Source of the DNA: Parietaria judaica
Taxonomy: Eukaryota; Streptophyta; Magnoliopsida; Rosales; Urticaceae
Reading direction: 5' to 3'
Length of the DNA: 64,000 bases
Assembly (NCBI GenBank): GCA_954871525.1
Contig: OX940871.1
Span: forward strand, 15,158,532 to 15,222,531
In this document: one piece after another, positions 9,485 through 51,108 of the stretch
Numbering within the stretch: the first letter of the stretch is position 1
Layout: each line of letters begins with the position of its first letter
Notes under the pieces: model-generated
Seen by the model: only the letters and a program-made list of their open reading frames with translations
Told to the model about the DNA's origin: nothing
Database searches by the model: none
Made by a program: the position numbers and the translations under genes

Positions 9485-9728
9485 GGCGATCCAGGTGAAG
9501 CAGAAATCCTAGGGTTTCGCAGAATCAAATGGCGAAAATCGAAGCTCTGAGCTTTCGAATTCGCTTGAGGAATGGGTTAGAGTTCGAATTTGGGTGTGGA
9601 TTGTGTCAGTTTTGACTGTTAATTTGGTTATATCGACTCGACAGAGAATCAACTTGGAGAAAGCTGAAACCCTCTTCGAGAGAGAACCTCCAAAGTCCAA
9701 TCGAACGAAATGGCGAGCCCTAAGGGGG

Positions 9729-9736
9729 TATTTATA
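9729..9736 (-). promoter_or_regulatory. TATA box of NRPB1
   Basis: TATAAATA on the minus strand, 245 bp upstream of the NRPB1 ATG. A start site about 30 bp further on would give a 5' leader of roughly 215 nt. The DNA from 9737 to 10360 shows no gene; it contains a short poly-C run near 9810. Confidence 0.55.
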
Positions 9737-24393: not shown

Positions 24394-24556
24394 ATTTACT
24401 GTCAAGAGTTTTAAACTTTTAATACAGTTTAATAATGGGCTTTTTAGCAAAATACCCAATTTAGGTGAAACTTTTTTAAAAAACCCTCAAAAGTTTACCA
24501 TAATTAAATAAACCCTCATTTTGTGTTATTTGGACAATTATGCCCTTAATATATCG

Positions 24557-24715
24557 AATCCTTCATCGTCGAACAGCCTTCATCATCGAATCCTTCATCG
24601 TCGAACAGCCTTCATCATCGAATCCTTCATCGTCGAACAGCCTTCATCGTCGCCGAACAGCCTTCATCATCGAACAACCTTCATCGCCGAACAGTGAAGA
24701 AGCCTGTTTCTTCGT
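24557..24715. repeat. Tandem repeat of tcatcgtcgaacagcct units
   Basis: Imperfect copies of a 33-36-bp unit containing ccttcatcatcga and atcgtcgaacag, just inside the left end of MULE-1. It probably lies in the 5' leader region of the transposase transcript. Confidence 0.75.
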
Positions 24716-25479
24716 CGTCGAACAGTGAGCTCGATTCTTCTTCACCAAACTTCGATCATCTTCCTTCTTCGACAGAGCTCGGGATCGCGTGATTACTTGC
24801 GACTGCAAGCTTCGATCAAGTCTGGAAAATTTGGCTCCTCTGTTTGCTCCTCGAAATTCGACGAAGGTACAATGAATCAATTTGCTCCTCTGTTTCTTTG
24901 ATAGTTCAGTTATTGAATTTGAAATAATGTGATTAATAGCAATATGCCAAGTTTGGTATCGATTTTTGTTCAAATTTGAGTAGAAGGATTGATGAACTTG
25001 TCTGGATGAAGCCGTAATCCCAAATCGAAAAAGAAACCAAAACCAGAGCGAAAAAATCAATGGCGACACTGGGAATTTATAGTGGTTCGCACTAGAGGCC
25101 GTCTTCACTGTAATTGGTTCACGGTGATACACCGAATGCGTGTTAAATACCTAAAATACCCTCGCTAAACGTGTCTTCAATATAGGTTTGAAACCTGAAT
25201 ACTTGTATGTGAGAAAGTTGTAGCAAATTTCTCAACATTAGGGTTTTTGGTGCATGAATTCCATATGCGTTACTGGCATTTTTTTGTATCGTGTGACGAT
25301 GTTGCAGTATCCATTGTGAAATCCGGTGCCGATTTTAGTTGGTGATTGGTTGCAATATAGTCAGTGAAACACCTAATTATTTCCGGGTTCTAGAATTAAG
25401 TGGTTACCTTATTGCATTGACTATTAATTAGTATCAACTAAAGTTGTGCCATGTTGCACCATTTTTTGGCTATTCACAT

Positions 25480-26165
25480 AAATGTAACTTTGATTACACG
25501 TTTGTAATTGAAGTTACACTAATTTAATTGGAATGAAATTTTTGTAACTGAAGTTACATTATCGTAACCAAAGTTACAATATCGTAACTGAAGTAACACC
25601 TTTGTAACTTCGGTGTTACACGTTATATTGTGTAGGTTCATTAATGTCGGCCTCCGAAGGATCATCAAGATCGTCGCACACTAAAAATTTGGCCAACCAT
25701 GGTATATTAAGAACTCTTATTGTCTACACAATTTAAATTCTACTTGTTACATAAGTGTTACTTGTAACTACAGTTACAAACGTGTTACCAAGGTTACGTT
25801 TTTGTAACTTCACATAAATGTAACTTTGGTTACACGTTTGTAACCGAAGTTACACTAATTTAATTGAAATTAAATTTTTGTAACCGAAGTTACATTATCG
25901 TAACCGAAGTTACATTATCGTAACCAAAGTTACATTATCGTAACTGAAGTTACACCTTTGTAACTTCGGTGTTACACTTTGTAACTGGTGTTACACTGTT
26001 GTAACTTTTGTAACTCAAGTTACATAAGTGTAACCGGTGTTACACTTTTGTAATTCTAGTAATATATGGTTACACTTATGTTACACTTCAGTTACCAACG
26101 TGTAACTGAAGTTACACGTTTGTATCTGAAGTTACATTATTTCAAATATTGCAGTTATATAATAA
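25480..26165. repeat. GTAAC/GTTAC dyad cluster, intron side of transposase exon 1
   Basis: Dense copies of gtaaccgaagttac and related dyads in the 5' leader intron and first coding intron of the transposase, interrupted only by exon 1. Spacing is mostly about 20 bp. Confidence 0.85.
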
Positions 26166-26815
26166 ATTTTAAAATTACTATTGTTACAGGGCAATTCACC
26201 AGTGAAGATCTAAATAGCAGTTCATCCAACGTATTTATAGACGACGTAACCGTCGAGCATTTTCCAAAGTTGTTTGACGTGGAAAAGGGCAACATGTTCA
26301 TATCGAAGAAGCATCTGCAGAACATTATGTGCATGATTGCAATCAGAAGAAACTTCTCATTTACAACTACGAATTCTGATACATGTCGGTTTGAAATCAA
26401 ATGTTCGAGTGCCGGTTGTACGTGGAAAATGCATTCTTCAATGGACTACAATAGCTCAACGACATGGAGGATAAAATCATACAATAAAACACACTCATGC
26501 GTGAGGACGGTAACCAGTACCAAGCACCCGCATGCAAACGCTTCCGTTGTAAAGGAATGCTTGAAAACTGCATTTGGTGAAGAAGAAGAAGAAGAAGTTG
26601 AATCCATCGCTCCGAAGAAAATAATCAAGAAGATGCGAAAAGAACACGGAGTAGAAATTAGCTATTATACGGCACGGAAGGCCAAGGAATTAACTTTAGA
26701 ATCCATGCAAGGAAGTGCGGAGGATTCGTATGCAATGCTACGTAAGTATGCAGAAGCGTTAAAAGCGAAAAACCCTGGTAAAATTACTTACTTTGTTTTA
26801 CTAGTTATTACCTAA

Positions 26816-27540
26816 GTGTAACTTGTAACTATAGTTATAATAGTGTAACTTAAGTAAGTAAGTTACATTATCGTAACCAAAGTTATATTATCGTAACTGA
26901 AGTTACACTAATTTAATTTATTTTAAATTTTTGTAACCGAAGTTACATTATGGTAACCAAAGTTACATTATGGTAACCAAAGTTATATTATGGTAACAAA
27001 AGTTACATTATCGTAACTGAAGTTACACTAATTTAATTGGAATTAAATTTTTGTAACCGAAGTTACATTATCGTAACCAAAGTTACATTATGGTAACCAA
27101 AGTTATATTATGGTAACAAAAGTTACATTATCGTAACTGAAGTTATACTAATTTAATTGGAATTAAATTTTTGTAACCGAAGTTACAATACGTAACCAAA
27201 GTTACATAATGGTAACCAAAGTTACTTTATCGTAACTGAAGTTACACTAGTGTAACTGGAGTTACATTATCGTAGCTGAAGTTACACTAATGTAACTGCA
27301 GTTACACTACTGTAACTGCAGTTACACTTATGTAACTGCAGTTACACTATTTTAACTTCGGTTACAAAGATTTCAAATATGATTAAATATCATATGTGTA
27401 ACCAGAATTACTTAGCTGTAATATAAGTTACATAAAGGTAACTGCAGTTACCATTATGTAAAAAGAATTACTTTTATGTAACTACGATTACCAAATAGTA
27501 ATTGAAGTTACAGTGTAAAACTTATTAACATTTTTTACTA
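26816..27540. repeat. GTAAC/GTTAC dyad array in transposase intron 2
   Basis: Runs of the 20-bp unit taaccaaagttacattatcg and variants. They are grouped by an AT-rich spacer (ctaatttaattggaattaaa) into roughly 120-bp blocks, then pass into shorter gtaactgcagttacact units. Most of the intron is made of these copies. Confidence 0.9.
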
Positions 27541-28380
27541 ACATTTTAATGTTTAGGTACCTATACAGCGTTTAGTTCTGACAACCAGGGTCGATTCAAG
27601 TACTTCTTTCTTAGTTTTGGGGAATCGATCAATGGATGAAGCATTGTAGGCCTATACTATCTGTCGACGGAACATTTCTAAAAAACAAGTACAAAGGTAC
27701 GCTCCTTATGGCAGCAGCGATGGATGGCGAAAATCACATCTTGCCTATCGCATTTTCGATAGTGGATTCAGAGAATCATGATTCTTGGCTATGGTTCTTT
27801 GAGCAACTGAAGATTTCTATTGGAGAGCGCGAAGGTTTATACATCATATCTGACCGCAAAGATTCAATTCCGAGAGCGATCACGTTGGTTTATCCAGAAG
27901 CTGCTCAGGGTGTATGTAAACAGCACTTATCCAGAAATCTTCTAAGCCATTTCAAGAACTCTTCTATTGATTTTTTCTTCTCCAAGTGCGCATTAGCATG
28001 TACGAAAAGAGAATTTGATCATTACATGAAGGAGTTGTCGACGATCTATGCACGAATTGAACCGTATTTGCAAGATGTCGATCCAACAAAGTGGGCAAAA
28101 TTATATAGCACTCAAAGACGCTACGGCATAATGACAACAAATATCTCAGAATGTCTTAATTCAGTCTTGAGAGAAGCAAGAGACCGACCTATTATTTCAT
28201 TGGTCGAGTCTTACAGAAAGCTCTGTCAAAATTGGTATAATAAACATAGACTAGAGGGAGCGTCGATGCGTATGAGGCTGACCCCATAAGCAGAGCTGAA
28301 GATGGATGTCCAAGAAGAATTAGCACGAACATTAATCGTAAGTGTTTTCTTTACTTTTTTTATTCATTAATTATATATAC

Positions 28381-28500
28381 CTGCAGTTACTTTAGCGTAA
28401 CTTCAGTTACGGTTACGTAGCTTCAGTTACGGTTACGTAACTCCTGTTACGCTAATAGCTAGAAGTATCTCCAGTTATGTAATTATAGTTACACCTAGCC
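28381..28500. repeat. Small GTAAC/GTTAC cluster in transposase intron 3
   Basis: Several cagttac/gtaact copies between the exons ending at 28337 and starting at 28560. Confidence 0.7.
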
Positions 28501-29749
28501 AAATGACTGTATAATCATTTTAAATGTGAAAATATATTTGTAATTTTTTCAATATGCAGGTTGATTCTATAAATGAAAGCGAATATGAAGTCACTGATAA
28601 AGGCTCACAATATGTTGTTAACTTGAGCTGCGAGACGTGCAGGTGTAATGTTTGGCAAATAGACGCTTTTCCGTGTGCTCATGCTATGACTTCATTTTGG
28701 AGGATTGGGTGTGATCGTAAAGCCTATGTGTCAATATTTTACACTAGGGAGGCTTATTTAGCCACTTATGCAGGAGGTAATGCACATTTAGATTAAAATA
28801 TTCTTTATAGAATTTATTTAACACTTTATGTATTATTATGCAGGAGGTATATATCCAAGTGGTTACGAAGCTTTTTCGGAGAACTTATGTAACACTTCAA
28901 GTTTTCAGGACCCATTCTTTCCAGACACTTTACCCCCCAAAGTAAGGAGGCAAGCAGGAAGACCGGAAAAAAACAAGAATTCCTTCAAACGGTGAAGAAT
29001 TCAAGAAGTCACTTTATTATGGAGCATGTGGTAAATTAGGCCATAACAAGCGCTCTTGCCTTAAGTTTCCGAAATGATTTAATCGTTGTAACATTTTCGA
29101 AGGCCATAACAGTGATTATATCTTTACACTATAACACAAGTAGGGGTGAAAGCGGAACCGGGAACCGGGAATTTCGCCATATTTTGTCCCTGTCCCGGAA
29201 AAACCGGGACACTGTTATCTTGTCCCGGTTCTGGTTTCGGTTATGAAAATTCCTGGTTTTTTTTCAAAACCGGAACCGGGACCGGAACCGGGACGCATAC
29301 AAAAATCCTGATTTTTTTAGGTCTATAATTCGGGAAAAAAATCGTGAAAAAAAACGGGTAAAAAACCGGGACAAAATCCGGGACGAAATTCAGGACGAGA
29401 AAAAAAAAAACCAATCCAAAATGAAAATTACCAAATCCGATACCGAGTAAAAATCCAAAATACGAAATCCAAGTACAAATTCAAAATAAGAAATGCAAAA
29501 TCCGAGTTCACGTCGTGAACTTTATAACACTAACTCCAAATCGGAGTACAAACAAATCATTTTTTCTTCTTTCCTTTTCGTTAGCCTTTTCCTTTTTGTT
29601 GTTCGGAATAGCACTCACTCCGGAAATAGCAGTGGGAATCGAAGCGGATGCTATCGGAGATTCGGAAACAGAATCTGCAAGAATTATCAAAAAAAGCAAA
29701 AACATCCTATTAGTTAAACAAAACAACTCATGAATTAACCAAAACAACC

Positions 29750-30505
29750 TATAAATTATAAAAAACATACCTGGATCTTCAACTTTTAGAGCATCCATAT
29801 ACGAAGTCAATTCATCCATGTGTACGACCACTGGCCAGCACAGTATATTCATTGCTCTTGTGTAACCAGTTCCTCAATAATATTAAGGCTTCCACTGTAT
29901 TAGGCGTTAAGGAGCTCCTATAGCAATCGAGAATGCGACCTCCGCACGAAAACGCAGACTCAGACGCCACTGTAGAAACCGGCACAGCTAGTATAAAAAA
30001 TCAGATTCAACAATTGTGGCTAATTGGCTATAATGAAATCAGATTCAAAAACTGTGGCAAAAAAATTTCAGATTCAATAAATGTGGCTATAAAAAAATCA
30101 GATTCAATCAATGTGGCAAAAAAATCAAATTCAATAACAGTGGCTATAAAAAAATCCGATTCAATAACAGTGGCTATAAAAAAATCATATTCAAGAATAG
30201 AGACAATGTGATATATAAATGAATTCGTACCTCGGATCAAGAATTGTGGCAAAATAGATAACCAGATTCACTTTCTCGGGATCACCCCCCCAATACTTCT
30301 CAAACTTGGAAGTCATCAGTTGCCCCATGGTATTCAAAGTATCTTCTTCTGGTTTACTAAGAAGCATATTTAACTCCTTTTTTACTGCACAAATGTCTCT
30401 GAAGCACAAGTTTGATGTTGCATGCTTTGTACCGCTGAGCCGAATAGTTAAGTCGTAGAATGTCTTCAAGAATACGACGAATAACTGAGCTTGTTCCCAT
30501 GCCAA
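29750..30505 (-). pseudogene. hAT transposase C-terminal remnant
   Basis: Two pieces in transcript order. About 30505-30225 encodes an RNase-H-like region with FLKTFYDLTIRLSG and FATILDPRYE. About 29990-29800 encodes the hAT dimerisation block with [15 protein letters not shown] and [12 protein letters not shown]. They are separated by an AT-rich tandem repeat at 30000-30196 that lies in an intron or is a later expansion. There is no BED finger and no start, and a stop follows soon after the dimerisation block. It cannot encode an active transposase. Confidence 0.8.
30000..30196. repeat. About 27-bp tandem repeat inside the nested hAT
   Basis: Six or so imperfect copies of a unit close to gattcaataacagtggctat followed by an A-run. 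Confidence 0.8.
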
Positions 30506-31398
30506 GTCGTCGGGAAGATGTTAGTTTTAAATCCCAAACAGCAATAAATCAAATCAAATGTTAGTTTTAAATCCCAAACAACAATGAAATCCCAAGTTAA
30601 CTACAAACAAGAACCTTAACATACGTTATAAATCTCTTAACAACTTAATATAATTGAAAGAAAACAGAAGCATCCAACTAGTTATACCATACATCAAGAT
30701 CTGATTACGAATTGCTGAATAATGGATCTGATTATGACAGTAATTAGAAACAATGCCTGCCACTCTCCCATTTTCGCAAGAAAACAGAGTTTGAAGAAGC
30801 AAATAATAGACTTCATTTTTCAACTGATTCTCTCATTTTAAATCTCGAACAGACGAACACCAATGCATCTTAACGAGCCTCAATTTAATTTATATATATA
30901 TATATATATTCATACCTTCTTGGAAACTGGTATGGAACGGCGAAGCGAGGAGGCGACGCACGGCGAGGAGGAAGCGACGCACGGCGAGGACGAAGCGACG
31001 CACGGTGAGGAGGAGGCGAATCGAAGTGACGGCGTGAGGAAGTGAGGATTAGGGAAGTGAGGAAGCGAAGTGTCGGCGTGATAATGAGTATGAGAGACAA
31101 AATTAGGTTTAGGTTAGGATAGAGACCGAAAAGAAAACGACATGTGTTTAAGTGACATTTTTTAAAAACGACAGATATATTATAAAACGACATAAAATCG
31201 GAACCGGGACAAAAAAACCGGGAATTTCATATTTTAAACTGGTTTTTGGTTCTGGTTTTTCAAACCGGGACAGGGACGTCCCTTTTTAAGGTATTTAAAT
31301 AAAAAAAACTGGTTTTTTACCATAAACGGTCCGGTACCGGGACCGGAACCGGGACGAAACCGGGAAGCGAGTACAAAATTTTCACCCCTAAACACAAG

Positions 31399-33470
31399 TT
31401 ACATAATTGTAACTGACTTTACATTTATGAGATATTTACATTTATGATATATATGCTAATTAGAATTTCACTAATGTAAATGTGGTTACTCTGTTGTAAT
31501 TGGAATTAAATTTTTATGTAACCGAAGTTACATTATGGTAACCAAAGTTACATTATCGTAACTTCAGTTACAATTGTGTAACTTGGGTTACACTCCGGTG
31601 TTACGCTTTTGTAACAGGTGTTACACTTTCGTAATTCTAGTAATATATGGTTACACTTATGTTACATAATTATATTAATCCAGTTTCCATCTAAAGGTAC
31701 GTAGCAATAAGTTCACATAATTTGAGTTACAAAAAAGAATTTAAATTGAAATATTGTGAAAAAATAGTGACATACAATTATGTAATAGTATAACCACAAT
31801 TAGGTAATACTATGACCACAATTATTATAGTTACACTAATGTACATGTGGTTACACTAATTTGATTGGAATTAAATTTTGTAACCGAAGTTACGTTATCG
31901 TAAACAAAGTTACATTATCGTAACTGCAGTTACACTAATTTAATTGGAATTAAATTTTTGTAACCGAAGTTACATTATCGTAACCAAAGTTACATTATGG
32001 TAACCAAAGTTACATTATCGTAACTGAAGTTACACTAATTTAATTTATTTTAAATTTTTGTAACCGAAGTTACATTATCCTAACCAAAGTTACATTATGG
32101 TAACCAAAGTTACATTATCGTAACCGAAGTTACACTAATTTAATTGGAATTAAATATTTGTAACCGAAGTTACATTATCGTAACCAAAGTTACATTAACG
32201 TAACCAAAGTTACATTATCGTAACTGAAGTAACATTATGGTAACCGAAGTTACACTATCGTAACTGAAGTTACACTAATTTAATTGGAATTAAATTTTTG
32301 TAACTGAAGATACATTATCGTAACCAAAGTTACATTATCGTAACCAAAGTTACATTATCGTAACTGAAGTTACACTAATTTAATTGGAATTAAATTTTTG
32401 TAACCGAAGTTACATTATCGTAACCAAAGTTACATTATGGTAACCAAAGTTACATTATCGTAACTGAAGTTACACTAATTTAATTGGAATTAAATTTTTG
32501 TAACCGAAGTTACATTATCGTAACCAAAGTTACATTATGGTAACCAAAGTTACATTATCGTAACTGAAGGTACACTAATTTAATTTATTTTAAATTTTTG
32601 TAACCGAAGTTACATTATCGTAACCAAAGTTACAATATGGTAACCAAAGTTACAGTATCGTAACTGAAGTTACAATAATTTAATTGGAATTAAATTTTTG
32701 TAACCGAAGTTACATTATCGTAACCAAAGTTACATTATCGTAACTGAAGGTACACTAATTTAATTGGAATTAAATTATTGTAACCGAAGTTATATTATTG
32801 TAACCAAAATTACATTATTGTAACCAAAGTTACATTATCGTAACTGAAGTTACACTTATGTAACTTCGGTTACACTTTGTAACTGGAGGTACATTGATGT
32901 AACTGTAGTTACACTTTTGTAACCGGAGTTACAATTTCAATATATTTGTTCAAATAATAATTTAGTGCTTTTGGAGTTAATTTGGAAGTATTAAAATAAT
33001 TTTTGTAACCGGTGTTACACTTTTGTAACAGGAGTTACACTTTCGTAATTCTAGTAATATATGGTTACACTTATGTAACCGCTATGTAACTGAAGTTACA
33101 CTTTTGTAATCTTGTTACATAAGTTACAAAAGTGTAACTTATGTAACTACACAATTTAAATTCTAGTTGTTACATAAGTTATATTTATGTAACTGAAAGT
33201 TACGTTTTTGTAACTTTGGTTACACGTTTGTAACTGAAGCTATACTTATGTATAAAAGTTACATAAAACGTTACAATAATTGTAACCTCAAAGTTACAAA
33301 AGTTTAAACTTCAGTTACAAACATGTAACAAATAGTGTATCTAAAGTTAAAGTTTTGTAATTGAACTTACATAATTTTAACTTCAGTTACAAATGTGTAA
33401 CTTAAGTTACAGTTACAATTGTTCGAGTTACAATTTCGTAATTCTAGAAATTCAAGAAACATTTCTCTTC
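31399..33470. repeat. Large GTAAC-N4-GTTAC array with 100-bp higher-order units
   Basis: The core (31860-32860) is almost pure 20-bp units such as taaccaaagttacattatcg. Each carries the dyad GTAAC-N4-GTTAC. Every fifth unit is replaced by an AT-rich variant (taattggaattaaatttttg), making a 100-bp higher-order repeat with some 80- and 140-bp variants. Flanks (31399-31860 and 32870-33470) hold looser copies. It occupies the spacer between the convergent genes of MULE-1; its left edge was split off by the nested hAT. Confidence 0.93.
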
Positions 33471-33635
33471 AATTAGATAACTTTATTGTTTTAACTATGT
33501 AACATTAATTCTGATTAAACACATGTAATCCGATAAGTAAAGGTAATAGTCATAAGAGTTTAAAAGGAAGAAAAAATAAAGCAGACAAATTGGTCACAGA
33601 CCATATGTTCGAAAATGATAATGACTAAAACTAAA

Positions 33636-36600
33636 TCACACATTTGCTTTCTTTGAAGCCCTTGTAACTTTTCTTTGGAATGTCTTCAAAGATGTTGTTT
33701 CAACCTCCTCAGCTTCTTCCTACAAATATAGAGGTATGTAAGTTACTTAATTGACATAAAGTAAATGGAATTAAATATACGTAATTCAAGTTACACTTGT
33801 GTAACAAAAATTACAACCAAAAATTAAAATTGATAAAAAATGTTACCTTTTCAAGCATCTGGGTAATGCCTAGGCTGAAACTAGGAGGCTCAATGGCTTT
33901 GTCAACAAGATTTTTATCCACCTAAAAATGTAATTACAAAGAAAATATTAAACTAAATATGATTAAACTAAATATGATTACAATATAAGATGACAAGTAC
34001 CTTTGTAGCCCTTGTTATAACAGCTTCAAGGAATTTGGAATCACTATCCATTTGAAGGAGTGTCTCGTCATCCAGATACGCAGATGTAACTTTCTTTGCG
34101 TCTTCTGTGGTGTCCTCAAGTGGTGCCTTCTCGGCAATCTTTTTCTTTTTCGGTAGGGGAGGAATCTCACCATCCTACAAATATAAATGGTAATAACTTA
34201 ATAGCTATAACTGAATTGTTTATTTGTATTTGGAGTTACAATTAAGTAACTTACCGGCTTGGTGCATAGCCATAGTTGCATTAAGTTTAACTTACATAAG
34301 TGGAGCTATATAACGAATATAGTGATAAATGGATTACAAATAGTACCTCTCCCAAATCCGGTGTAGTTAGAGGCTCAGAGGGAACACTCGTAGTCTTTGT
34401 ACGAGAACTCTTTGATCTCTTAATTGGATTCTTCTTTGGCTGCCTGGCTACATGCTCGGAAACCTTTTCTCTCCCGGCCTACAAAATACAAATGGTGGTA
34501 GTTACATGAACATATTTACAATAAGTTTTATCGGAGTTACAATAATGTAACTGGACCGGAGTTACGGTATTGTAACTGGGGTTACAGTAATGTAACTGGG
34601 GTTACAGTAATGTAACTGGGGTTACAGTATTGTAACTGGGGTTACAATAATGTAACTGGGGTTACAATTACTTAAGTGGTGCTAAATTACAATTACATAA
34701 ATAAGTTGTAAATTACATTACAATCAGTACCTTGTTCAAACCAATGTGAGACATTAGCATCTCCACTTGGTTTTTCAAGAAAACAACTTCATTCTTCAAG
34801 CTAACTTGCTCAGCCTTCATCTCTTTGTTATCTTGTTTAAGCTCTGCTACTTCTTGGCGTAGCTGATCGATCATTAAAGATGAGGCTTGTTGAGGAGCTT
34901 GTGGTGAAGAACTAGGTTTTTGAGGAAGTTGTCTCTCAGAACAGTATACCGACAGAACACGTAGCTGTAATATTAGAAAAACGATAATAATATTATTAAG
35001 ATTCCAAAAACAGTGCCATGGTTATTATAACAAAATTAAATTGTAAATGAAGTAAAGCAATTCGAAAATACCTCAATGTCATCAAAATTGGAAGCAACCT
35101 TTCTAGAGCATACTTTACCACCGAGCAAACTCCAATTCAAAATTGGTGGACCGATAGTAGAATTCACCTTTGTAGCAATTTTGGCCTTGGACCACAATGG
35201 TATAGCCTGAGCTAAGTACACTAAAATTGCAGTTGGCATACCATGAAGGTGATAGCCAGTTATGGGACTGTCGGTATTTAAACTTGTGGCAGCCTTTAAC
35301 ATGAACTCCTTAGTGGTTTCGTAGACAATTATTCCCCACGGATAGGACTGAAAAGCAGAAGAAGAACTGGCTAAGTCGATGTGGGCATTCTCGATTGGTT
35401 TATCCTTTGGCTTGCTGTCGATGAATGCCTCGAAGAAGTAAATGTTCACCATTTTGAGCAGCTCGTCATCATCGATATCATCGGAAGCAGAAAAAAGATC
35501 CTCAAAGTCACTACACGTAACTCTTGATGAACTACCAAACCACTTCTCCCTTATTTCTCCTTTCCTTGGGATGACGTGGGATCGAAAGGCTGAACAGTTC
35601 AAGAAGGTCGTTGCCTGAATCTCTTTAATGCCAAACTCAACGACTTGGTCATTGAACTTGAAAGTCAGCAACTCATCTTTACCCTCCACCATATGAAACA
35701 CGAGGTTGTGTAGCAAACGAGATGGAGATGTTTGTTGCGTGAAGTTGACTAGGTAACCAAAAAGTCCATTCTTGAACTTATCTAAACAAGCTGGCCGCGG
35801 AGCCAACAACTGCTCGATGTATTTGATGGTATTGAACCGTTGATGCGTATTGATTCTAATTCCGTGTCTTCTCCTTGTCAAATCTACAAGAAACTGCAAT
35901 AAGATAGTGGTAAGTACAATTACATTGTAATTTACAATCATATAATTATAGTTAAAGTTACAATCATGTAACTATACAGTAACATATGAAACACTAACAG
36001 TATGTAACTGAAGTAACTATACAGTTACAATCATGTAACTGTAGTTACAGTTACAATTATGTAACTGAAGTTACAAACATGTAACAGTTACCTGTAACTA
36101 TAGCTACATGATTGTAACTGTAACTATAGTTACATGATTGTAACTGTAAATATATTGTTAATGTACTGTTATTGTAGTTACAGTTATGTAACTAGAATTA
36201 CATAAAGGCAGTTGTAGTTACAATCATGTAAGAGTAAGTTACATTTATATAATTCTATTTACGTAACTGTAATAACATTTATAATTATATCTGAGTTATA
36301 CAATGTAATTGGTCTTACATTTATTTCGGCTTTCTCGTTTGATGCATCTTTGGATTTAGACATCGGTTTAGAGGAGGAAGCCTTCTCGGAATCGCCACAT
36401 GTTGATTTCCTACCTAAAAGAAATTAAATGAAACATAATAAGTAAGATAATGAACCGAATTATATTGACAAACATACATTGAATAATGTGAAAAGTTTAC
36501 CAAATAAGAAACAAATTATAAAGGGATATAATTACCTGCCGATTTGCGCTTGCGCTCCACAATTTTGCATGAATCTGTGGCCGCTCCCTGCGACTGAGCC

Positions 36601-36653
36601 GCACTTGTTGCCCCGGTTTCTAGCGCCGCACTTGTTGCCTTGATTTCTACCAT
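33636..36653 (-). CDS. DUF1985 protein of MULE-1, VANC-like candidate anti-silencing factor
   Basis: Eight exons on the minus strand: 36653-36536, 36413-36319, 35893-35072, 34964-34731, 34478-34347, 34174-34001, 33921-33847 and 33719-33636. They total 1734 nt, 577 residues plus TGA, with frame kept across all seven GT-AG introns and no internal stop. Residues 1-71 are polar with a basic ERKRKS patch. Residues about 72-345 (exon 3) hold the DUF1985 domain, with NGLFGYLVNF, LLHNLVFHMVEGKDELLTF and VVEFGIKEIQATTFLNC. Exon 4 (346-423) ends in a clear coiled coil, including DQLRQEVAELKQDNKEMK. Exon 6 opens with PKKKKI, a likely nuclear signal, and the tail is Lys-rich. No C48/ULP1 protease is attached, unlike many plant transposon DUF1985 proteins. 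Known: Arabidopsis VANDAL VANC proteins carry DUF1985. Inferred: an equivalent role here. The introns are themselves dotted with the GTAAC/GTTAC motif. Confidence 0.85.
34540..34680. repeat. gtaactggggttaca repeats in DUF1985 intron 4
   Basis: Six to seven close copies of gtaactggggttacagta, a 20-bp variant of the element's dyad, inside the intron between exons 4 and 5. Confidence 0.85.
35905..36318. repeat. GTAAC/GTTAC cluster in DUF1985 intron 2
   Basis: Irregular copies of catgtaactgtagttaca and similar dyads fill most of the intron between exons 2 and 3. Confidence 0.85.
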
Positions 36654-37866
36654 CCTTACACTGTACTTTGCACACGAATTGATCAAGTCTTAGGTTAGGG
36701 CACAATTTGCAAACAAAAATCCTTAATCTATAGAGCGTATTCACATAAAATTTGGCTTTGAAACTGTAGTAACTTTTTACAGATTGTTCACAAGATAATT
36801 TGGTTCATAATGATAAAATTGATCATATAAAAAATTAAGAGCATTTAGGTAAACTACATAAACTTCATGACTCAGCTTTGCTTCCAAGAGTCAAAATCAC
36901 ACATTAAATTTTGTAAATTACATAAATCTAAAACGATCACAGTGTCATCAGTTATATTAACAAGTTAGAAGAAATAAACAAACAGTTTCAACACACAAAT
37001 GCATGCCTGGAATCACTCTACTTTGTTTCAGAATTCAATACACATTTCCGTTTTTTGACTTGCAATTTCACTTCAAACTTCGTACCCAATTTGTTGTATC
37101 ACATTATTACTTGTAAAAGGGAACATGAATTCCAAACCTAACAGTACTCTCTCATCAAGTATGGAGAATATGCCATATTAATTTAGGTGATTACTAATGG
37201 TAAAATCAAAAATCTGAAATACAGCTTGAAATGAGCTAAAAAATGGAGATTTGATTATATATATGAGCTGAGTGGGACAAGTACACTTGCTTTCTAAACT
37301 AACGTGATGAAGTATGGAAGAAGGAGATGATATTATATCAATCACAATATATTGTACATTATGTAATGAAAGATGTTGATTACCTCTGAGATTCAACGGA
37401 GATGAGAATGTCGGAGCGTCGATTGGCGATTCAAGGACGATGAGAGAAGCTCGGAATCAGAGGAGAGGAGAGCTCGTGGGTTAGGGCTCGAACCGTTTCT
37501 AGTGAAGGAGGTCGCGATTTGCAGAGTTAGGGCTCGAGGAGAAAACGCAGAGGAGAGCTCGGGATATAAGGAATAGTTAGGGCAGAGAGGAGAGCTCGAG
37601 GAAGAAGAAGCTCGCGATTTGGAGACAAGGCAGAAGGAGGAATCGCGAGACAGAAAACGCAGAGCTCGAGGAATCGCGAGAGAGAGAAGGAAAGCTAGGG
37701 CAAAGCTCGAGGGAGGAGAAGAGGGAGAAGAGGGAGAAAAGTGATTTGAGGGTAATTAAGGAAAACAAAGTTTAAAATGAGTATAATTTAGATTATTGAA
37801 ACTTTGAGTATTTTTTTAAATAGTTTGAATTTTATTGAGGATTTTGCTAATAAGCCTTTTAATAAT

Positions 37867-40600: not shown

Positions 40601-41298
40601 AACTATCTTTCAACCAAATTACTCTAATCTCTCTCGAGCGAAGATAGATTAGAGTTTGTGTGAAAGATTGGTGCCTTTGAGAGTTTTTCTTTTCTTTTCA
40701 CGAGATCTCGATCATTTACTGTGTTACATTGTTTAAAAAACACGAAGATCCATTCCTTCTAAGATCATAAACAGATCTGAAATTTGAGTTTACACAGATA
40801 ACTATTATTCCGGTTTGCCAACTCTTGAAAGCCTAATACTAATTCCGAATCAGCAACTGGAATTACGGGCAAGCTGGGAACTATTTGGGCCTGGACCTGC
40901 TGAGCAATCCGGACTTGGTGGCCTCCGACGCTGTCGTCTCCTTCAGTGCCGCCTTGTGGTTTTGGATGACTCCACAGGTACACTTATCAAGTGGGCCGGG
41001 CCTCATTTTTCTCGTAACTCAGCGTTTTTCACACCGGGATGTACAACTATAATTGCAGGAAAACAAACCTTCCTGTCATGATGTCATCCTCGGGGCGTGG
41101 GACCCGAACGAGGCTGACCTGGCGGTGAACCGGCTCCCTGGCTATGGCATACTGACGAACATCATCAATCCGGGAGAGTGCGGCCATGGCGCCGACAACA
41201 GGGTAGCGAGTCGGATTGCGTTCTACGAGAGGTACTGCGACATGCTCGGAGTGAGCCCGGGCGATAATTTGGATTGCTACGAGCAGTGTAGATTTTGA
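39045..41298 (+). CDS. GH19 chitinase-like protein, copy A, with Gln at the second catalytic Glu
   Basis: Catalytic-domain protein of plant class I/II chitinases (hydrolysis of chitin by inversion). Exons: 39045-39172 (optional leader), 39368-39714, 40122-40275, 40854-40977 and 41059-41298; frames join throughout. With the leader the product is 330 residues. Starting instead at the ATG at 39360 gives 290. Family motifs are [28 protein letters not shown] (first catalytic Glu present), [20 protein letters not shown] and [17 protein letters not shown]. At the second catalytic position the codon at 40178-40180 is CAA (GYCHIRQMN), so Gln replaces Glu, and hydrolysis should be severely reduced. There is no chitin-binding domain and no signal peptide. 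The leader exon, [17 protein letters not shown]..., is Ser/Thr-rich and transit-peptide-like. The splice acceptor joining it (gcaag) is weak. A leader intron at about 38260-38995 is inferred. Confidence 0.82.
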
Positions 41299-41574
41299 AT
41301 ATCAACAGGTTGATGCAGGTGGTTTGGTTTGAATCCCTGCAATGTCATTTTACTTTTCTAGGTCTATTTGGAGCAAGTGAATATGACTGAGGTAGAAGCT
41401 AATATGTTATTTTGGCTTTCGCCGGTAATATATAATACATATAAAATATGTACGTTATTAATTTATGGAGTGATATTTTAATAGCGTTAGTTAGTATTAG
41501 GATCATGTAAAATTACAAAATTACCCTAATCCTAACCAAACTGGTTTTTTCTATCCATTGATTTCCCTTAGAAG

Positions 41575-41975: not shown

Positions 41976-42239
41976 ATGCGGGATGCTGTTATTATTAGAG
42001 TCTGATAATTTTTTTCCGGCAATAAGAACACAAAAAATTAATTACCGTTATTTTTTGGAAGAAAATTGCTACTTTTGCCGATAATATAAAAAAGCCACTA
42101 ATGAGGGAAAGAATTGGCTAAAAGACCTCTTTAGAGATGTCGTTCGCTCCCTACCCTCGTTATAACATTTTATTTCTCTTACATTTATTTTTCGCTCTGA
42201 TAAATACAAGTTGCGAGTTCTCATTTATTTTTTATCCAC

Positions 42240-44150
42240 TATTTTGTGAAATTACTACTTTGCCCTTTGGTAGTTGATCCATTTATTATTTTTTACATTT
42301 TCTTTTTCAAATATATTCTCGTCTCCTCTTCACTTCGACGCTTTGTATTCCCTAGATCATCTCTTCAGACTCCGAACGTTTTCTCTTCTCCATCGTACTC
42401 CTCGTCCATCTGTTCTGTTCATTCTGGTTCGAGAACGACTTCGCGCCACTCGGCTTTCTTCTGTTTGCTTTCCTGGCACAGGACGATCCTTTCAGCGACG
42501 AGTTTCTCCGATCATCCTTTATCCTCCCCAGAGCCACACAAATGGAGGTACCCATTTATTTTTTGAGAACCTACGCTTTGTTTCGACTGTTTGAATCGTA
42601 ATGATGTTAGGGTTTATACTGTTGTTTACGTAGAACGAGAGTAGGGTTGGTTCTGTACGAATTGCAGAAATACCGCTAGAAGTTCGTCGTTGGTCCGAAT
42701 ATAATGCATTACCGCTATGTAAACATAAACGATTTTTGTACGTAGAAATACCGCTAGATATCTTACCATTACCGCTAGGGTTTATACTGATGTAATTATG
42801 ATTTGTTTATTAGCCTTCAAATGCTTGGAGATGTTTTATTGAAGAAAATGATTTGTACCACTTTCGACTGGAGACCGATGAAGGGAACTTCCGTCGGATT
42901 ACTGATCTGATCAAGTCACGATTGACCGCAAATGAGCTTCAGTGGTTTCGGACTACCCAATTTGGGCCTCTCTTGGATGTCCCCACTTTCTTTCAGTTTT
43001 CTGAAAGGGTGATCAGAAACTTGTTTTGCAGAATCTTGGCAAAACAAAGGCATAGGGAGATGTGGATGACGGTGAACCATGTTCCACTATGATACTCCAT
43101 TGACGAGTTTCAGATCATCACTGGTCTCATATGTGAAAACATTCCAGATATGTTTACAAATTGCAATTATGAATGCCCACATTGGGAATACGTCCCCCAT
43201 TGTACCTCGTCGGTTAGAGAATGAATGTCCCTTCCTACAGAAGGAGAAGTCCCACTCAACGCACTCGAGGTCCGCTTAATGTTGGGTCTCACTCTGGGAA
43301 ATGCTGATAGGAAGAGGTTGGTGTGCTTGTGCTTCGTCTACGGAGTTCTGTTATCCGGGTCCAGAATCCCCGACCTAGTTTGGGCGTTCGTGGAGGACCT
43401 CGACTCCTTCGTACAATATCCTTCGGGCCGGAGCTCATACACATATGCATTAAAGAATCTCGTGAAGACGGCAACCGTGGAACTATCAGAAAATATGCCT
43501 GAGGATAATCCTGATGTGGCTCAGAATAATCCTGGTGTGCCTATAATGCCCACGATAACCATTCGGGGGTTCCTCTTCCCACTTCAGGTATATGTGAAAT
43601 ATTTTACTTAGTTAGCGGTATTACAGTGGCCTTCATATATATCCAACTATGACATATTTATTTTCTTGCAGGTTTAGCGTACGAGTGTTTGTCGGGTGTG
43701 TAAAGAGCCGAGGCGGTCCGTCGTGAGGGATATTCAAGACCGCGTATCTACAAATGGGCAACGAATCTAGGGCATATCGAACCAAGTATCCTTGATAATG
43801 GAATTCCCGATTACGGGGATGGTGATCCGACGGTTGGTTGATATATGTTGATAGCGAAACCATTTTGATTTATGGAAGTAAAGAATAGATTTATTAATTC
43901 TAACTTTTAATATTTATAGGGACAATTGAGTATGCTACTGCGGACGGAAGTAGAAAATTGTCAACACATGCCGCTGCCGCCACAAGGAGTACCGTACCCT
44001 GAACTTGAGTTGGAAGATTTTTTTTAAGGACGAGGAGGACAACAGGATGGAGATGAACAAATATAAAGAGGAGAAAGAGAACGAGGATGACGATGATGTT
44101 TATATACGCCATGTTTTAGTATGTTTTAATATTTTGGACTAGGATAGAAG
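42240..44150 (+). pseudogene. DUF1985 gene relic D1 of MULE-2
   Basis: A likely first exon ends ATGGAG|GT near 42541. A larger exon from about 42813 encodes FRLETDEGNFRRITDLIKSR, FGPLLDVP, FSERVIRNLFCRI and MWMTVNHVP, the DUF1985 pattern. A TGA at 43090-43092 and frame shifts before 43225 break it. Later exons continue with VCLCFVYGVLLSG and LVWAFVEDLDSFVQYP, and a tail exon starts gacaattgagta near 43920. It is a diverged relative of the intact DUF1985 gene at 33636-36653, on the other strand. The introns contain TACCGCTA motifs. Confidence 0.7.
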
Positions 44151-44519
44151 AATAGATGAATTTGTATCTATCTTTTGTAATATTTTGGACAACTATGTCA
44201 ATTTAACAATGGTAATTTTGGAACTCAGATTTTAGTTGTATTAGAAAACGTTTCCGCTGTATGTAACACCCCCATTAGTCATTAAAGTTGTGATTACCGC
44301 CATATTAATATTTTTTCCCGCTAGTTACTAAACTTGCTCTTACCGCTAGCCATTATTCATGCTCTTACCACTAGTTACTAAACTTGCTCTTACCGCTAGT
44401 TACTAAACTTGGACTTACTACAAGCTATTTACATCGCTCTTACCGCTATAACTAATTGTGTTCCCGTTAGTAAATTTAAATCACTCCCGCTAGCTGTTCG
44501 TTTATCGAAATTACTAGTT

Positions 44520-46360
44520 TACTCTTTGGTAGTTGAGCGGTGGGCGATTTATTTTCATTACCCTCATTTTATTTTATAGTTTTTTTCAAACACAATCTCA
44601 CTTATTCTTGTGATTAATGCACTTTGACGCTTTCTATTCCCATTCCGACTCCGAAACATTTTTCTCTTTCCATCGTACTATCCTCGTTGCAACAAGGGTT
44701 TCTTTTCTTTGCTTTTCCGGCGATCATCGTCTTCATCCTCCCCAAAGCCACATAAATGGAGGTAATCTTTTATTGTTTGTGAAACCCGTACTTTGTTTCG
44801 ACTCGTAACGATGTTGGGGTTTACTCATTTTACATTCAATATACTATACTGTGTGGTTGACGAAGAAGAACGAGTGTAGGGTTGGTTCTGTATCTGTTAG
44901 AGCAATACTGCTCTCTATTCACGCTCCGTTCACAGAATACCGCTACAAGTTCACCGCTAGGTATCTATTTACACCGCGTTTTATATTTCCGATAGCGGTT
45001 TTCCGTTGCTCCCTATATACCTTTATACCGCTATGTATAATTTCTAGAAACTAATCAAGTTATGATTTGTTTTTTCGCGGAAATAGCTATATAATATCCT
45101 AGCGCCGGATGAGTTGTACGACTGTGAGGTCGTCACCGAGGAAGCAAACTTCTCCACGATCACGAATATGATTAAGGAGAACCTGAATGTGGGAGAGACT
45201 GAGTGGTTTCGGAGAACACACTTTGGACCTCTATTAGATGTCCCATGCACTACAAATTCTCTCCCTAACTGTTTGGAATTTGATTTCGAGAAGCACTACA
45301 CATCAAGTGCCATGTGAGGTGTGGATGTTGGTGAACAATGTTCCATTACGATACGGGGTTCGAGAATTTGCCATCATCACCGGGCTGAATTGCGCACCCC
45401 TGCCGAGCATTGAAGCTATCGTTAGACAACCAGAAAAGAACGAATCATTCAAGAAACGGATGTGGCCAAATGCAGGCCCAAATGTCACATTCAATATGGT
45501 GCTGGACGAATTAGATAACAATCATCTTTATCCGGTTGTGAGCAATGAGGACAGGAGAAGGTTGGCATGCCTCAACTTCGTCTTCGGGGTGTTGTTACCC
45601 CATCCTGGTGAAACTATTTTGCATGTGGACTACTTGCGCTTGGTGGAGGACCTTGACGTATTCGCTCAATATCCTTGGGGTTGAGAGTCATTCCTAGGAT
45701 CGGTACGGAATATCCAGATTAGAGCAGTTAAGGAGTTGCAAAAAAACATCCCTAGACAAGGACGAGAGACCCCGATGATGACAGTTTCGGGGTTCATACA
45801 TCCGCTTCTGGTATATATGTAATGGTTCAAAGTTATTTATTCACAATCGACATCTTATGTGCGAATTTAACGTGTTAAAATTCATGCAGATTTTGGCATA
45901 CGAGTGTTTGCCTGGTCTGGCGCATGTCTTAACGGACCGAAGGAGTCCGAGGAGGCACCTCTTATGTGCAAATGGAAAACGCGTCCAGTCGGGAATATTG
46001 AACTTCACTGCCTGTCAATTAAAAACGCTATTTTGCATGGGGCGGATCCGAGGGTAGTTTGATCTATTGAAAATTTATCAATATCAACTATGATTTTGGA
46101 AAATAACAATACTCTATAATTTGCAGGGACAATTGAGTGTACTAATTCCTACGGAGATGGAAGCTGAGTTACCGCATATAAACTCCCTCGATCATCCCTT
46201 TGTACCTTAACACCCAATGTTGGAGGAGCTCGTGCAGGCATTGGAACGTGGTGAAAATATCGTCCAGCGACCGTACTATCCGTTGCCGTTGCCACCGCCA
46301 CCGCCACCTCCACAGTCACCAGCGGAGACCGAAGAAGCTACTTCCTTATCGGGATAAATC
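44520..46360 (+). pseudogene. DUF1985 gene relic D2 of MULE-2 (tandem duplicate of D1)
   Basis: Same order as D1, about 2.2 kb downstream: cacataaATGGAG|GT near 44760; an exon from about 45107 with DCEVVTEEANFSTITNMIKE and FGPLLDVP; after a frame shift, CEVWMLVNNVPLRYGVREFA and IITGLNC; then LACLNFVFGVLLP and RLVEDLDVFAQYPWG. An in-frame TGA follows at 45682-45684, after which coding-like sequence continues. A tail exon starting gacaattgagtg (46127) is Pro-rich. The D1 and D2 leaders share gaaattacta-t-tttg and gcactttgacgc-like blocks, supporting tandem duplication. Confidence 0.7.
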
Positions 46361-46554
46361 TATGTTTTTTTTTGGACTATGTTTTTTTTAATCATATTTT
46401 TTTTACTAGCATATTTTTATTTTGGACTAGTAGTAGTATGTTTTAGACTAGTATGTTTTGATTCTCGCTAGTAATATTATAATATTACGTGGTACTATTC
46501 TAAATATTACCTATAATATAACTACCTCTAAATATTACCTACTAATGCTAGTGA

Positions 46555-47985
46555 TAAGTGAGATGGATAATAGCTGGGTACCGCTGAGTATTCCCTACTA
46601 GATCAATTCGTGCACGTATGCGAAGCAATGCATGTTTCAATAAGGTTCAGTAACCTTTATTTCTCCATCAAAACTACTTACCGCTAATTAATTAACGTAT
46701 CCGCCGCTAGACACCCGAAGCAATACCGCTAGATGTTACCTACTAGAGGTTGGTCACTAAACACCTAGAGGTATCGTAGCGGAATGATAGTAGGAATGGG
46801 GAAGTTCAGTGTTTCTATCATATGGATTCATTTTGCCGTCAATGTTCATTATTAGGTTCACCGTGACAACTATTGGAAAATGAGATGGATAATAGGCGGA
46901 TAATGAGTTTGATAAAAGAACTAGCTAGTTTGTTGGATCATAAAACAAGTCTATATCAATCGTGCACGTATGTGAAGCAATGCATGTTTCAATCCATCAA
47001 TTCTTTCTTATTTCCACTTAAAAGGGTTTAACACTATTAAATAAGGTTCAGTAACCTTAATTTCTCCATCAAAACTACTTACCGCTAATTAATTTACGTA
47101 TCCGCCGCTAGACACCCGAAGCAATACCGCTAGATGTTACCTACTAGAGGTTGGTCACTAAACACCTAGAGGTATCGTAGCGGGATGATAGTGGGAATGG
47201 GGAAGTTAAGTGTTTCTATCATATGGATTCATTTTTCCGTCAATGTGAATTATTAGGTTCACCGTGACAAGTTGACAACTATTGGTAAGTGAGATGGATA
47301 ATAGGCGGATAATGAGTATGATAAAAGAACTAGCTAGTTCGTTGGATCATAGAACAAGTCTATATCACTCGTGCACGTATGCGAAGCAATGCATGTTTCA
47401 ATCCATCAATTCTTTCTTATTTCTACTTTAAAAGGTTTAACACTATTAAATAAGGTTCAGTAACCTTAATTTCTGCATCAAAACTACTTACCGCTAATTA
47501 ATTTACGTATCCGCCGCTAGACATCCGAAGCAATACCTCTAGATGTTACCTACTAGAGGTGGTCACTAAACACCTAGAGGTATCGTACCGGGATGATAGT
47601 AGGAATGAGGAAGTTCAGTGTTTCTATCATATGGATTCATTTTGCCCTCAATGTGCATTATTAGGTTCACCGTGACAACTATTGGTTAGTGAGATGGATA
47701 ATAGGCGGATAATGAGTATGATAAAAGAACTAGCTAGTTCGTTGGATCATAGAACAAGTATATATCACTCGTGCACGTATGCGAAACAATGCATGTTTCA
47801 ATCCATCAATTCTTTCTTATTTACACTTAAAAGGGTTTAACACTATTAAATAAGGTTCAGTAACCTTAATTTCTCCATCAATACTACTTACCGCTAATTA
47901 ATTTACGTATCCGCCGTTAGACACCCGAAGCAATACCGCTAGATGTTACCTACGAGAGGTGGTCACTAAACACCTATATAGAGGT
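46555..47985. repeat. About 400-bp tandem repeat, 3.5 copies, with TACCGCTA motifs
   Basis: Anchors cgtgcacgtatg recur at about 46609, 46961, 47370 and 47770, so periods are 352, 409 and 400 bp. Each copy includes ccgccgctagacacccgaag, gcaataccgctagatg and aggttcaccgtgacaa. No coding frame. Confidence 0.9.
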
Positions 47986-48600
47986 ATCCGTTTAACCGTT
48001 AGTGTTTCTCATATACCGCAAAATAATTCCTCTTACCGCCAATGTTCGTGTAAATACCAATATACCCTCACTAGTACTATAAAATGGAAACGAGGAAAAC
48101 CTAAATGTTCAATCTCAATTCGCCGTTTTACATTACCACTTTGTGAAACCCTAATCCATACTCCATACCCCTTTTGGAACCCTCATACAAATCTAGATTT
48201 TTCTGTAACCCAAGTCTAACATGTTTGAGCTCAAACACCTAAGGCTTTCCATTCAAAAAAAAAAAAATTACCTAAAGCGGATGTTTGTCAATGCGCCCCC
48301 GTCTCCGCCACCGTCGTAAGATTTCTTTAAACCATTTATCTATTCTCACTTTTTTTAAAAATATTATCCTTATTCTAACTTCCTTGTTTATTTGTCTCCT
48401 GTATATTAGTGAACGACTTAACTAAGCCATTATGCTACCCAAAAAAATAGCTGGTATGAGCAGGACCGAAATCGCAAGACTTTGGATAGGTCTCTGAAAC
48501 ACATTGGTCAGAATAAGCTTTGCATAAAGAGACTGCATTAGCTGTGACAACGTTAATCTGGCCTATACTTTCTTAAAAATTATTAGCTGTGACAACGGTG

Positions 48601-48833
48601 TTTCGGACCTATACTTCTTTGCCAGATTATTGTATTTATGTATTTGTATTCCAAAGGATACAAATAATATTCTTGTATAATACAAATTGTAAAATAGCGG
48701 TAATTAGAATATGCCAGATCTCGGACCTATACTTCTTTGCTAGATTATTGTATTTATGTATTTGTTTGTATTCCAAACGATACAAATAATATTCTTGTAT
48801 TATACAAATTGTAAAATAGCGGTAATTATATTA
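48601..48833. repeat. About 117-bp tandem duplication
   Basis: Two copies of a block beginning cggacctatacttctttg and ending acaaattgtaaaatagcggt. Each ends in the TAGCGGTA motif. The flanking DNA 48000-48600 and 48840-49500 shows no gene beyond further copies of that motif. Confidence 0.85.
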
Positions 48834-49507
48834 TTATGACACAATGCTAATGATATTTGATTTTTTTTTATTTCTACATCATTTTGTCATTTACCCGATA
48901 TTCTACAAAATCACAATAGCGGTATAAGCGTTAATAACATTAATGTTGCTGGAATAAATTTAACAAGTGTAATTAATAACCCGAATTGAGATACTACTAG
49001 CCCAAATGAACTAAAGTAAGTTCAATCACTACCTCTATATCAAATAAATCATAGCGGTAAATACATATCATCACGATCACGGTGATAAATAAGGACCCCA
49101 AGTCCTGATTGACCCACGACTGACCCGAATCCCGTGTGCGGTTTTATCTCGTTCAACGGACCTCCGACTCGCACCAGACCGAATATGAGTAAGTATTAGA
49201 TATTTGAGTCAATCAGGCTTTCGCGATAACCCTTTATGAAGTAACTCCCATCACTGACAGTTGTAACGCTTGCCATAATTTTAAATGAAAGGATGCAACC
49301 CTTTACGATATGTTATTCAGTAAATGAAAGGTTCGGTTTCCATAAAGAAAAAGGAAAAAAAAACATGATACGGCCGTTCAATTTCCTCCACAACTGACGC
49401 TTGCCAAGACAAAGGCAACAAGAAAATGAAAACGACTCATATCCAAAATTCAAATACCTTAACATTATACGATACCGCTATACCACGGTCCACGATACAT
49501 ATTACCG

Positions 49508-49813
49508 CTACTTTATACACAATGTCATGTAGCAGTTACATATGGTGTCTACTTCAGGAGATACCTTTTTCACTAGCTCGACGTACAGCTGTTTCAACCT
49601 TGACGGTCTATCTGGTGTCCGAATATATGATTCGAAGTAAGGTTCATCAGCTATGGCTATTGGCTGAGTACTGTGATCAACTGTTAAAGCAGTTGCAGTA
49701 TCATTTATTCCCTCCCATGACCACTTGTAACAATATTTATCGAAATTCCATTCTCCGCCAAGACTAACAATCAAAAGGTAATCATTCATCATGCAAATGG
49801 AAAAATACTTCAA
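49508..49813 (-). pseudogene. Possible MULE transposase N-terminal fragment of MULE-2
   Basis: The minus-strand frame has YLLIVSLGGEWNFDKYCYKW and, later, SRLKQLYVELVKKV. This recalls the N-terminal region of MuDR-type transposases (a 'GG.W' motif, then a segment ending 'YEELV.K'). It faces the D1/D2 DUF1985 relics convergently, the same layout as in MULE-1. No catalytic core or SWIM finger was found nearby, so the assignment is tentative. Confidence 0.4.
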
Positions 49814-49822
49814 TATTAAATT

Positions 49823-49831
49823 TTTTCCTTT

Positions 49832-49874
<43 letters not shown>

Positions 49875-49968
49875 GATCTTTGGATTTCACTCCTACCCTA
49901 ATGGTGACTCGAACTCAAGACCTCTAATGTCTTAAGTGATGTACTTGTTACCACTAGACCAAGCACAT
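49823..49968 (-). mobile_element. Second tRNA-derived SINE, 15-bp target duplication
   Basis: On the minus strand, A box TGGTCTAGTGG (49961-49951) and B box GAGTTCGAGTC (49916-49906), a body of about 75 bp, then an (AT)n and T/A-rich tail. Direct repeats cttcaatattaaatt flank it at 49808-49822 and 49969-49983. It is shorter than, and a different family from, the SINE at 23314-23522. Confidence 0.87.
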
Positions 49969-50099
49969 CTTCAATATTAAATTAAACTGCTAATAGGCTT
50001 ATATTATACTTAAGAATTCATAGAGTACAAACTAAATTCGGCCTACAGATTACGGTACCGCTACATAACATATTCATAGCGCATAATTTATCAAAAATT

Positions 50100-50945
50100 G
50101 AAACAACAATTTGGTACTTGGTTACAGTGGCTAATCTTAGTTAATATTTTAAGGATTCATATAGTACATCCGGCCTACAGATCTCGGTAGTGATACATAA
50201 TACATTAATACCGCTATATTTTGTCCACAAATTGAAAACAATAATAAAATTACGTTATTATACTGGGATAACCTTACCTTATATTTTAATGATCTAGATA
50301 GTACATTCTGCCTACATATAGCGGTACCTCTGTATAATATATCCATACTGCTATAATTTGTCAACAAATTGAAAACAATAATAAAATTATGTTACCATAC
50401 TAGGATAACCTTACCTTATATTTTAATGATCTAGAGAGTACATTCTGCCTACATATAGCGGTACCTCTATATAATATATCCATACCGCTATATTTTGTCC
50501 ACAAATTGAAAACAATAATAAAATTACGTTATCATACTAGGATAACCTTACCTTATATTTTAATGATTTAGAGAGTACATTCTGCCTACATATAGCGATA
50601 CCTCTATATAATATATCCATACCGCTATATTTTGTCAACAAATTGAAAACAACAATAAAATTACGTTATCATACTGGGATAACCTTACTTTATATTTAAA
50701 AGATCCAGAGAGTACATTCTGCCTACAGATATAGGTACCGCTAGATAATATATACATACCGCTATATTTTGTCCACAAATTGAAAACAATAATAAAATTA
50801 CTTTATTATACTGGGGTACCCTTACCTTATATTTTAAAATCCAGAGAGTACATTCTGCCTACAGATATCGGTACCGCTAGATAATATATACATACCGCTA
50901 TATTTTGTGCACAAATTGAAAACAATAATAGAATTACTTTATTAT
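50100..50945. repeat. About 137-bp tandem repeat, six copies, with TAGCGGTA motifs
   Basis: The anchor ctgcctac recurs near 50310, 50448, 50584, 50721 and 50858, with a diverged copy near 50172, spacing 136-138 bp. Each unit contains a variant of tatagcggtacc, a taccgctatattttgt block and caaattgaaaacaataataa. Non-coding. Confidence 0.9.
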
Positions 50946-51108
50946 ACTGGGATTCAACTCTTGAAAGATTGATTCAATTTTGTGCACACCTTCGAATGAG
51001 TCAACTCTTGATATACAATCGAATTGAAAGATTCGCTAATCGTTGGCTGGGTGCAGAAGACAAAGAGAAGGAATACAGTGAATCGGCGAAAAAACAAAGG
51101 GAGCTTTA

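Follow-up and report, generated by a model that had tools for sequence, protein, structure and literature searches.

Two loci in a 64,000-nucleotide stretch of the Parietaria judaica genome (contig OX940871.1; hereafter the window, with positions counted from its first letter) each combine a gene for a DUF1985 protein with a short word of their own that is concentrated in the non-coding DNA of that locus. The first, element 1, is a Mutator-like element (MULE) carrying an open DUF1985 gene and 85 copies of the dyad GTAAC-N4-GTTAC; the second, element 2, is a decayed DUF1985 locus carrying 33 copies of TACCGCTA. We read both as VANC-type anti-silencing systems of Mutator-like elements with new motifs, to which we assign a probability of about 0.7. 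What this reading starts from, namely gene structures, domains, motif density, confinement of the motifs to non-coding DNA and their mutual exclusion, is observed directly in the window. The dyad and TACCGCTA are taken as protein targets because two diverged DUF1985 loci repeat the VANC pattern of Arabidopsis.

That pattern comes from PMC5735166: the non-coding regions of VANDAL21 contain YAGTATTAY, frequently as tandem repeats, VANC21 binds it there, and the copies so marked lose methylation, while VANC6 acts on another set of elements through the motif AGTTGTCC/AGTTGTAC, likewise in non-coding tandem repeats. The two motifs differ between families, each lying within its own, and the copies in VANDAL21 run in a single orientation (PMC5735166). 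The likeness to VANC21/VANDAL21 (Hiun) of Arabidopsis thaliana lies in a DUF1985 protein encoded within a MULE and a private motif dense in introns and in intergenic and terminal non-coding parts, and the likeness to VANC6/VANDAL6 and VANDAL8 lies in a related protein whose motif and target families are different, again in non-coding tandem repeats. YAGTATTAY is a one-way motif, whereas the dyad of element 1 is palindromic and the word at the second locus is TACCGCTA. The Arabidopsis motifs themselves do not account for the pattern: YAGTATTAY occurs once in element 1 and is absent from element 2 and from the rest of the window, and AGTTGTCC/AGTTGTAC shows no accumulation, with 0 matches in element 1, 2 in element 2 and 4 elsewhere. 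An earlier sequence-only reading of this DNA had already set the dyad apart from the VANC21 motif.

Element 1 and its parts are as follows.

24437..37857: element 1, a MULE of 13,421 bp, or roughly 11.2 kb once a nested hAT is left out, bounded by a target-site duplication (TSD) and inverted ends
24428..24436: left copy of the 9-bp TSD, TTTAATAAT
37858..37866: right copy of the 9-bp TSD, TTTAATAAT
25644..29077, plus strand: MURA-type transposase gene of about five exons (Pfam PF03108, PF10551 and PF04434)
29141..31390: nested hAT-like insert with an 8-bp duplication, AACACAAG; free of dyads, it serves as a natural control
33636..36653, minus strand: VANC-like DUF1985 gene, open over 577 codons in 8 exons
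35072..35893, minus strand: exon 3 of this gene, with the DUF1985 domain
25480..26190: array A1, 13 dyads on the 5' side of MURA and in its first intron
26780..27556: array A2, MURA intron, 17 dyads on a 20-bp lattice with 120-bp repeats
28338..28559: array A3, MURA intron, 2 dyads
31398..33635: array A4, between the genes, 45 dyads on a 20-bp lattice with 80-140-bp (mostly 100-bp) repeats
33720..34730: array A5, 5 dyads in DUF1985 introns, each with TGGG as its inner bases
35894..36318: array A6, DUF1985 intron 2, 3 dyads, with a 26-bp local repeat

The limits proposed earlier on the basis of a 9-bp target duplication proved exact, with TTTAATAAT on both sides, and the termini match each other in inverted orientation at 76% across 95 alignment columns. 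VANDAL elements also have a 9-bp TSD, and their terminal inverted repeats (TIRs) are absent or short and degenerate, with some members of the clade possessing them (PMC6446971); the ends of element 1 are imperfect but present. The setting of the DUF1985 gene is of Mutator type not only by its TSD but also by the transposase domains DBD_Tnp_Mut (E 4.9e-7), MULE (E 7.6e-22) and SWIM (E 5.7e-6) in the neighboring gene, and the nested insert holds a hAT RNase-H domain (E 6e-16, Pfam).

The uninterrupted eight-exon DUF1985 gene described by the sequence-only reading was reproduced in full, with GT..AG introns and zero internal stops, and its protein matches Pfam PF09331 at E 7.5e-15, which passes the curated cut-off. 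The coiled coil that had also been claimed stands only as probable, at residues ~377-415 of the 577-residue protein, where the Pfam matches to the coiled-coil families DivIC, ZapB and bZIP_1 all fall below their curated cut-offs. A ULP1 protease domain, said to be missing, was indeed not found among the pieces scanned, and the Pfam scan of element 1 matched no DUF287 domain, which VANC proteins also show according to Hosaka et al. Wider searches with this protein returned no relatives: a sequence search of the PDB gave 0 matches up to E 1; in a protein database search, the 7,987 candidates that had the most words in common with it were scored and none reached E 0.001; and in viral contigs 10 stretches fit a peptide pattern, 0 of them encoding a relative, with 0 exact matches to the array unit. 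An AlphaFold model of the DUF1985 exon from a three-row alignment was discarded at a mean predicted local distance difference test score (pLDDT) of 34.

The transposase gene, in contrast to its open neighbor, reads as broken, with frameshifts at ~27.63 and ~28.97 kb and, between them, a stop at 28287-28289, its exon limits and lesions being a reading from the frames. With such a MURA the copy is unlikely to be autonomous, and any anti-silencing here could only serve other members of the family, or be a relic. A search of all 64 kb with the window's own domains (tblastn, E 0.01) found neither a second transposase nor a third DUF1985.

All 85 dyads lie in non-coding DNA of element 1 and none in the other 50.6 kb of the window, against a mean of 0.04 and a maximum of 2 for element 1 in 1000 runs of a first-order Markov simulation. 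Both the packing of introns and spacers with the motif and its density inside versus outside the element, which the sequence-only reading had named as a check, are thus borne out within the window. The dyads are distributed as 30 in 1,548 nt of MURA introns, 45 in 2,298 nt of intergenic space between the MURA and DUF1985 genes, 8 in 1,284 nt of DUF1985 introns and 2 in 1,209 nt on the 5' side of MURA; none falls in the exons of MURA (1,883 nt) or of the DUF1985 gene (1,734 nt), in the hAT insert (labelled as 2,260 nt) or in the 1,204 nt that lie beyond the DUF1985 start codon on its right. Half-sites on their own do occur in the exons (3,617 nt; GTAAC 7, GTTAC 1) and outside element 1 (50,580 nt; GTAAC 41, GTTAC 47). 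Within the arrays the half-sites form a lattice with a period of 20 bp, in which 163 of the 286 adjacent pairs alternate, 85 running from GTAAC to GTTAC at 9 bp and 78 from GTTAC to GTAAC at 11 bp. The inner tetramers differ by array (CAAA, CGAA, TGAA, TGCA, TGGG and others). Between 26913 and 32760 a variant unit replaces the half-sites once per 80-140-bp repeat, and of the ten such units compared seven keep the dyad symmetry as TTAAT-N4-ATTAA and three lack it. A reading of the dyad as a MYB site (MYB core TAACTG) was rejected, as it fits only inner bases starting with TG and not the 22 CAAA and 17 CGAA dyads.

The second locus was first seen as DUF1985-like frames in a six-frame translation, in a listing that covered the window up to ~18.6 kb and from ~38 kb onward, and comprises the following.

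42050..51100: element 2, second DUF1985 locus, limits approximate, no ends found
42814..43608, plus strand: decayed DUF1985 copy A, with in-frame stop codons
45087..46354, plus strand: decayed DUF1985 copy B, with a frame break and a stop; PF09331 at E 1.4e-24
42671..50900: TACCGCTA, 33 copies (26 plus, 7 minus, in blocks), none in the marked DUF1985 frames

The limits are approximate because a search for TIRs and TSDs gave only weak, AT-rich matches. Copy B is diverged from the element-1 DUF1985 domain (22% identity over 122 columns), and copy A matches copy B at E 6e-17 by tblastn, two of its pieces matching the family at E 8.1e-5 and 8.1e-4, both under the curated cut-off, and the third having no match. 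In the pieces scanned with Pfam no transposase domain was found, and three C-terminal pieces gave 0 matches to coiled-coil families, in a gene that is decayed and whose exons are guessed. Two side observations belong to this locus, both made by eye: a minus-strand frame at 49511-49837 resembles the N-terminal exon of a MULE transposase and has no Pfam match, and a probable small hAT-like insert with inverted ends GGTGGCGTTTGGTTA / TAACCAAACGCCACC lies at the edge, at 51109-51851.

When over-represented 8-mers were sought against a second-order Markov background, with only unrelated contexts counted (those differing in at least half of their letters), TACCGCTA came out at the top of element 2, with 33 copies spread over 14 unrelated contexts (or 13 if the threshold is changed) where 0.43 were expected (log10 P -16.2). 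In eight nine-kb control windows that avoid element 1 and overlap element 2 by no more than 100 bp, the best words gave log10 P of only -4.2 to -7.8. The contexts have no shared flank, and the motif lies only partly in tandem repeats (a 400-bp and a 137-bp array). The two motifs are mutually exclusive by locus: the counts of dyad and TACCGCTA are 85 and 0 in element 1, 0 and 33 in element 2, and 0 and 0 in the remaining 41.5 kb. The original proposal of a VANC-like system in element 1 is supported in part, by an anatomy that fits closely and by a second diverged DUF1985 locus with a non-coding motif of its own; it had overlooked both this locus and the broken MURA.

Several observations weigh against reading the two loci as anti-silencing systems. 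That the DUF1985 gene is unbroken next to a MURA carrying three lesions is only a weak sign of constraint (P 0.06), the CpG ratios carry no clear footprint of methylation protection, and the dyad of element 1 is palindromic, as against the single orientation of the VANC21 motifs, a trait that may not hold for VANC systems in general. The plain 8-mer search gave log10 P of only -6.6 in element 1, a weak score explained by the background model, which the abundant half-site inflates, so that the dyad test is the apt one. Having a private word does not prove anti-silencing by itself, since the nested hAT accumulates one too: AACCGGGA, at log10 P -13.5 and -13.2 in two windows spanning the whole insert, perhaps represents transposase-binding subterminal repeats of the hAT. 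Most of the dyads, moreover, are tandem duplicates within a 20-bp array that is homogenised and has higher-order repeats of 100-120 bp. Since duplication makes such arrays grow, contexts were counted separately, and only 8 of the 85 dyads have clearly unrelated ones; in these eight the inner four bases vary, the first being T in 7, with the half-sites fixed by the search itself. Core bases of the lattice do vary less than the others (8/430 versus 23/430, P 0.009), but a single column in which repeat classes are mixed supplies 10 of the 23 variants, for which reason the comparison is not sound evidence of selection.

These points bear differently on the other explanations to be considered. An ordinary satellite-like tandem repeat, spread between introns by conversion or duplication and bound by no protein, would produce just such a strong 20-, 100- and 120-bp periodicity, so few independent contexts and a conservation signal of this ambiguous kind; yet it would have to arrive in six separate non-coding places that have half-sites and spacing in common and many different inner tetramers, to spare the exons entirely, and to leave element 2 with 14 unrelated contexts and no common flank, and we regard it as unlikely. 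The motifs might instead be binding sites of the MULE transposase, comparable to subterminal repeats, with the DUF1985 gene incidental. That short words do accumulate in transposons is plain from AACCGGGA, found in 10 contexts in the windows covering the hAT insert, and a subterminal position is possible for TACCGCTA, as the ends of element 2 were not found; the dyads of element 1, however, are not terminal, starting 1,106 bp in from the left end and stopping 1,724 bp short of the right end, and they fill introns and intergenic space, which leaves this explanation with a rather small chance. Recruitment of a host transcription or splicing factor that aids transcription of the element would suit dyads placed in introns and 5' of MURA, positions from which enhancers act, but one common host factor does not predict two DUF1985 loci with non-overlapping motifs, and of the explanations named we consider this one very improbable.

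On the anti-silencing reading, we infer binding, demethylation and derepression from the Arabidopsis work. The DUF1985 protein of element 1 would most likely bind GTAAC/GTTAC half-sites that alternate in orientation at a distance of about one helical turn, probably with a coiled-coil dimer sitting on each dyad, and dense binding in introns and spacers would remove DNA methylation from the elements bearing the arrays while sparing the rest of the genome. The copy of element 1 in the window may act only in trans for its relatives, or may itself be decaying, and element 2 would be the relic of a separate anti-silencing system whose protein read TACCGCTA.

A more speculative extension, which we think rather doubtful, is a dimeric branch of VANC proteins in which a coiled coil turned a one-sided reader into a reader of inverted half-sites, with element 2 keeping the one-sided form; the link between coiled coil and palindrome is drawn from two cases. 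On the other strand TACCGCTA reads TAGCGGTA, which fits the frame AG-NNN-TA, as do AGTATTAY of VANC21 and the AC-type AGTTGTAC of VANC6, and this hints at a common recognition frame with a changeable middle triplet. Neither the CC-type AGTTGTCC of VANC6 nor the element-1 half-site fits the frame, which a random 8-mer has a 2.3% chance of fitting and which was spotted post hoc, so that it serves as a lead only.

Elsewhere in the window, remains of a Gypsy-type retrotransposon lie at 52798-57430, with SH3_Tf2-1, Integrase_p58_C and a weak Chromo match (scan of 52798-53340, the rest by eye). A gene for the largest subunit of RNA polymerase II with a heptad-repeat tail lies at 2663-9800 on the minus strand (translation, by eye), and pieces of a class I chitinase gene, apparently in two copies, lie at 39360-41300 and 62713-63834 (39360-39725 scanned, the other by eye).

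A 2022 study by Sasaki et al. (EMBO J 41:e110070) concerns, to go by its title, fast co-evolution of anti-silencing systems of Mu-like transposons in eudicots, so that such systems have already been attributed to this group, and it is also said to find that motif density and helical spacing matter; the motifs described here may be among those it lists. In a review (PMC13317346), that study is credited with Ulp1-bearing VANCs that recognise motifs of their own, and Kaonashi/KIU MULEs are described as carrying a VANC gene with a captured Ulp1 domain beside the transposase, with similar elements in melon, grapevine and rice. Element 1 resembles these in being a MULE with a VANC gene adjoining a transposase, and is unlike them in the Ulp1 domain, not found here in the pieces scanned. 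The feature that may be new is a dyad that is palindromic and helically spaced, next to a protein with a probable coiled coil. RNA-directed DNA methylation targets the same non-coding regions in Arabidopsis (PMC10398659), and this would be a reason for the motifs to change rapidly. One 64-kb stretch thus offers, from sequence alone, two candidate pairs of protein and motif that differ from both Arabidopsis pairs of PMC5735166. If they hold, a DUF1985 gene together with an over-represented non-coding word could reveal the specificity of these proteins in one genome after another, and they could be used as sequence-addressed tools against silencing, as the VANC authors suggest (PMC5735166).

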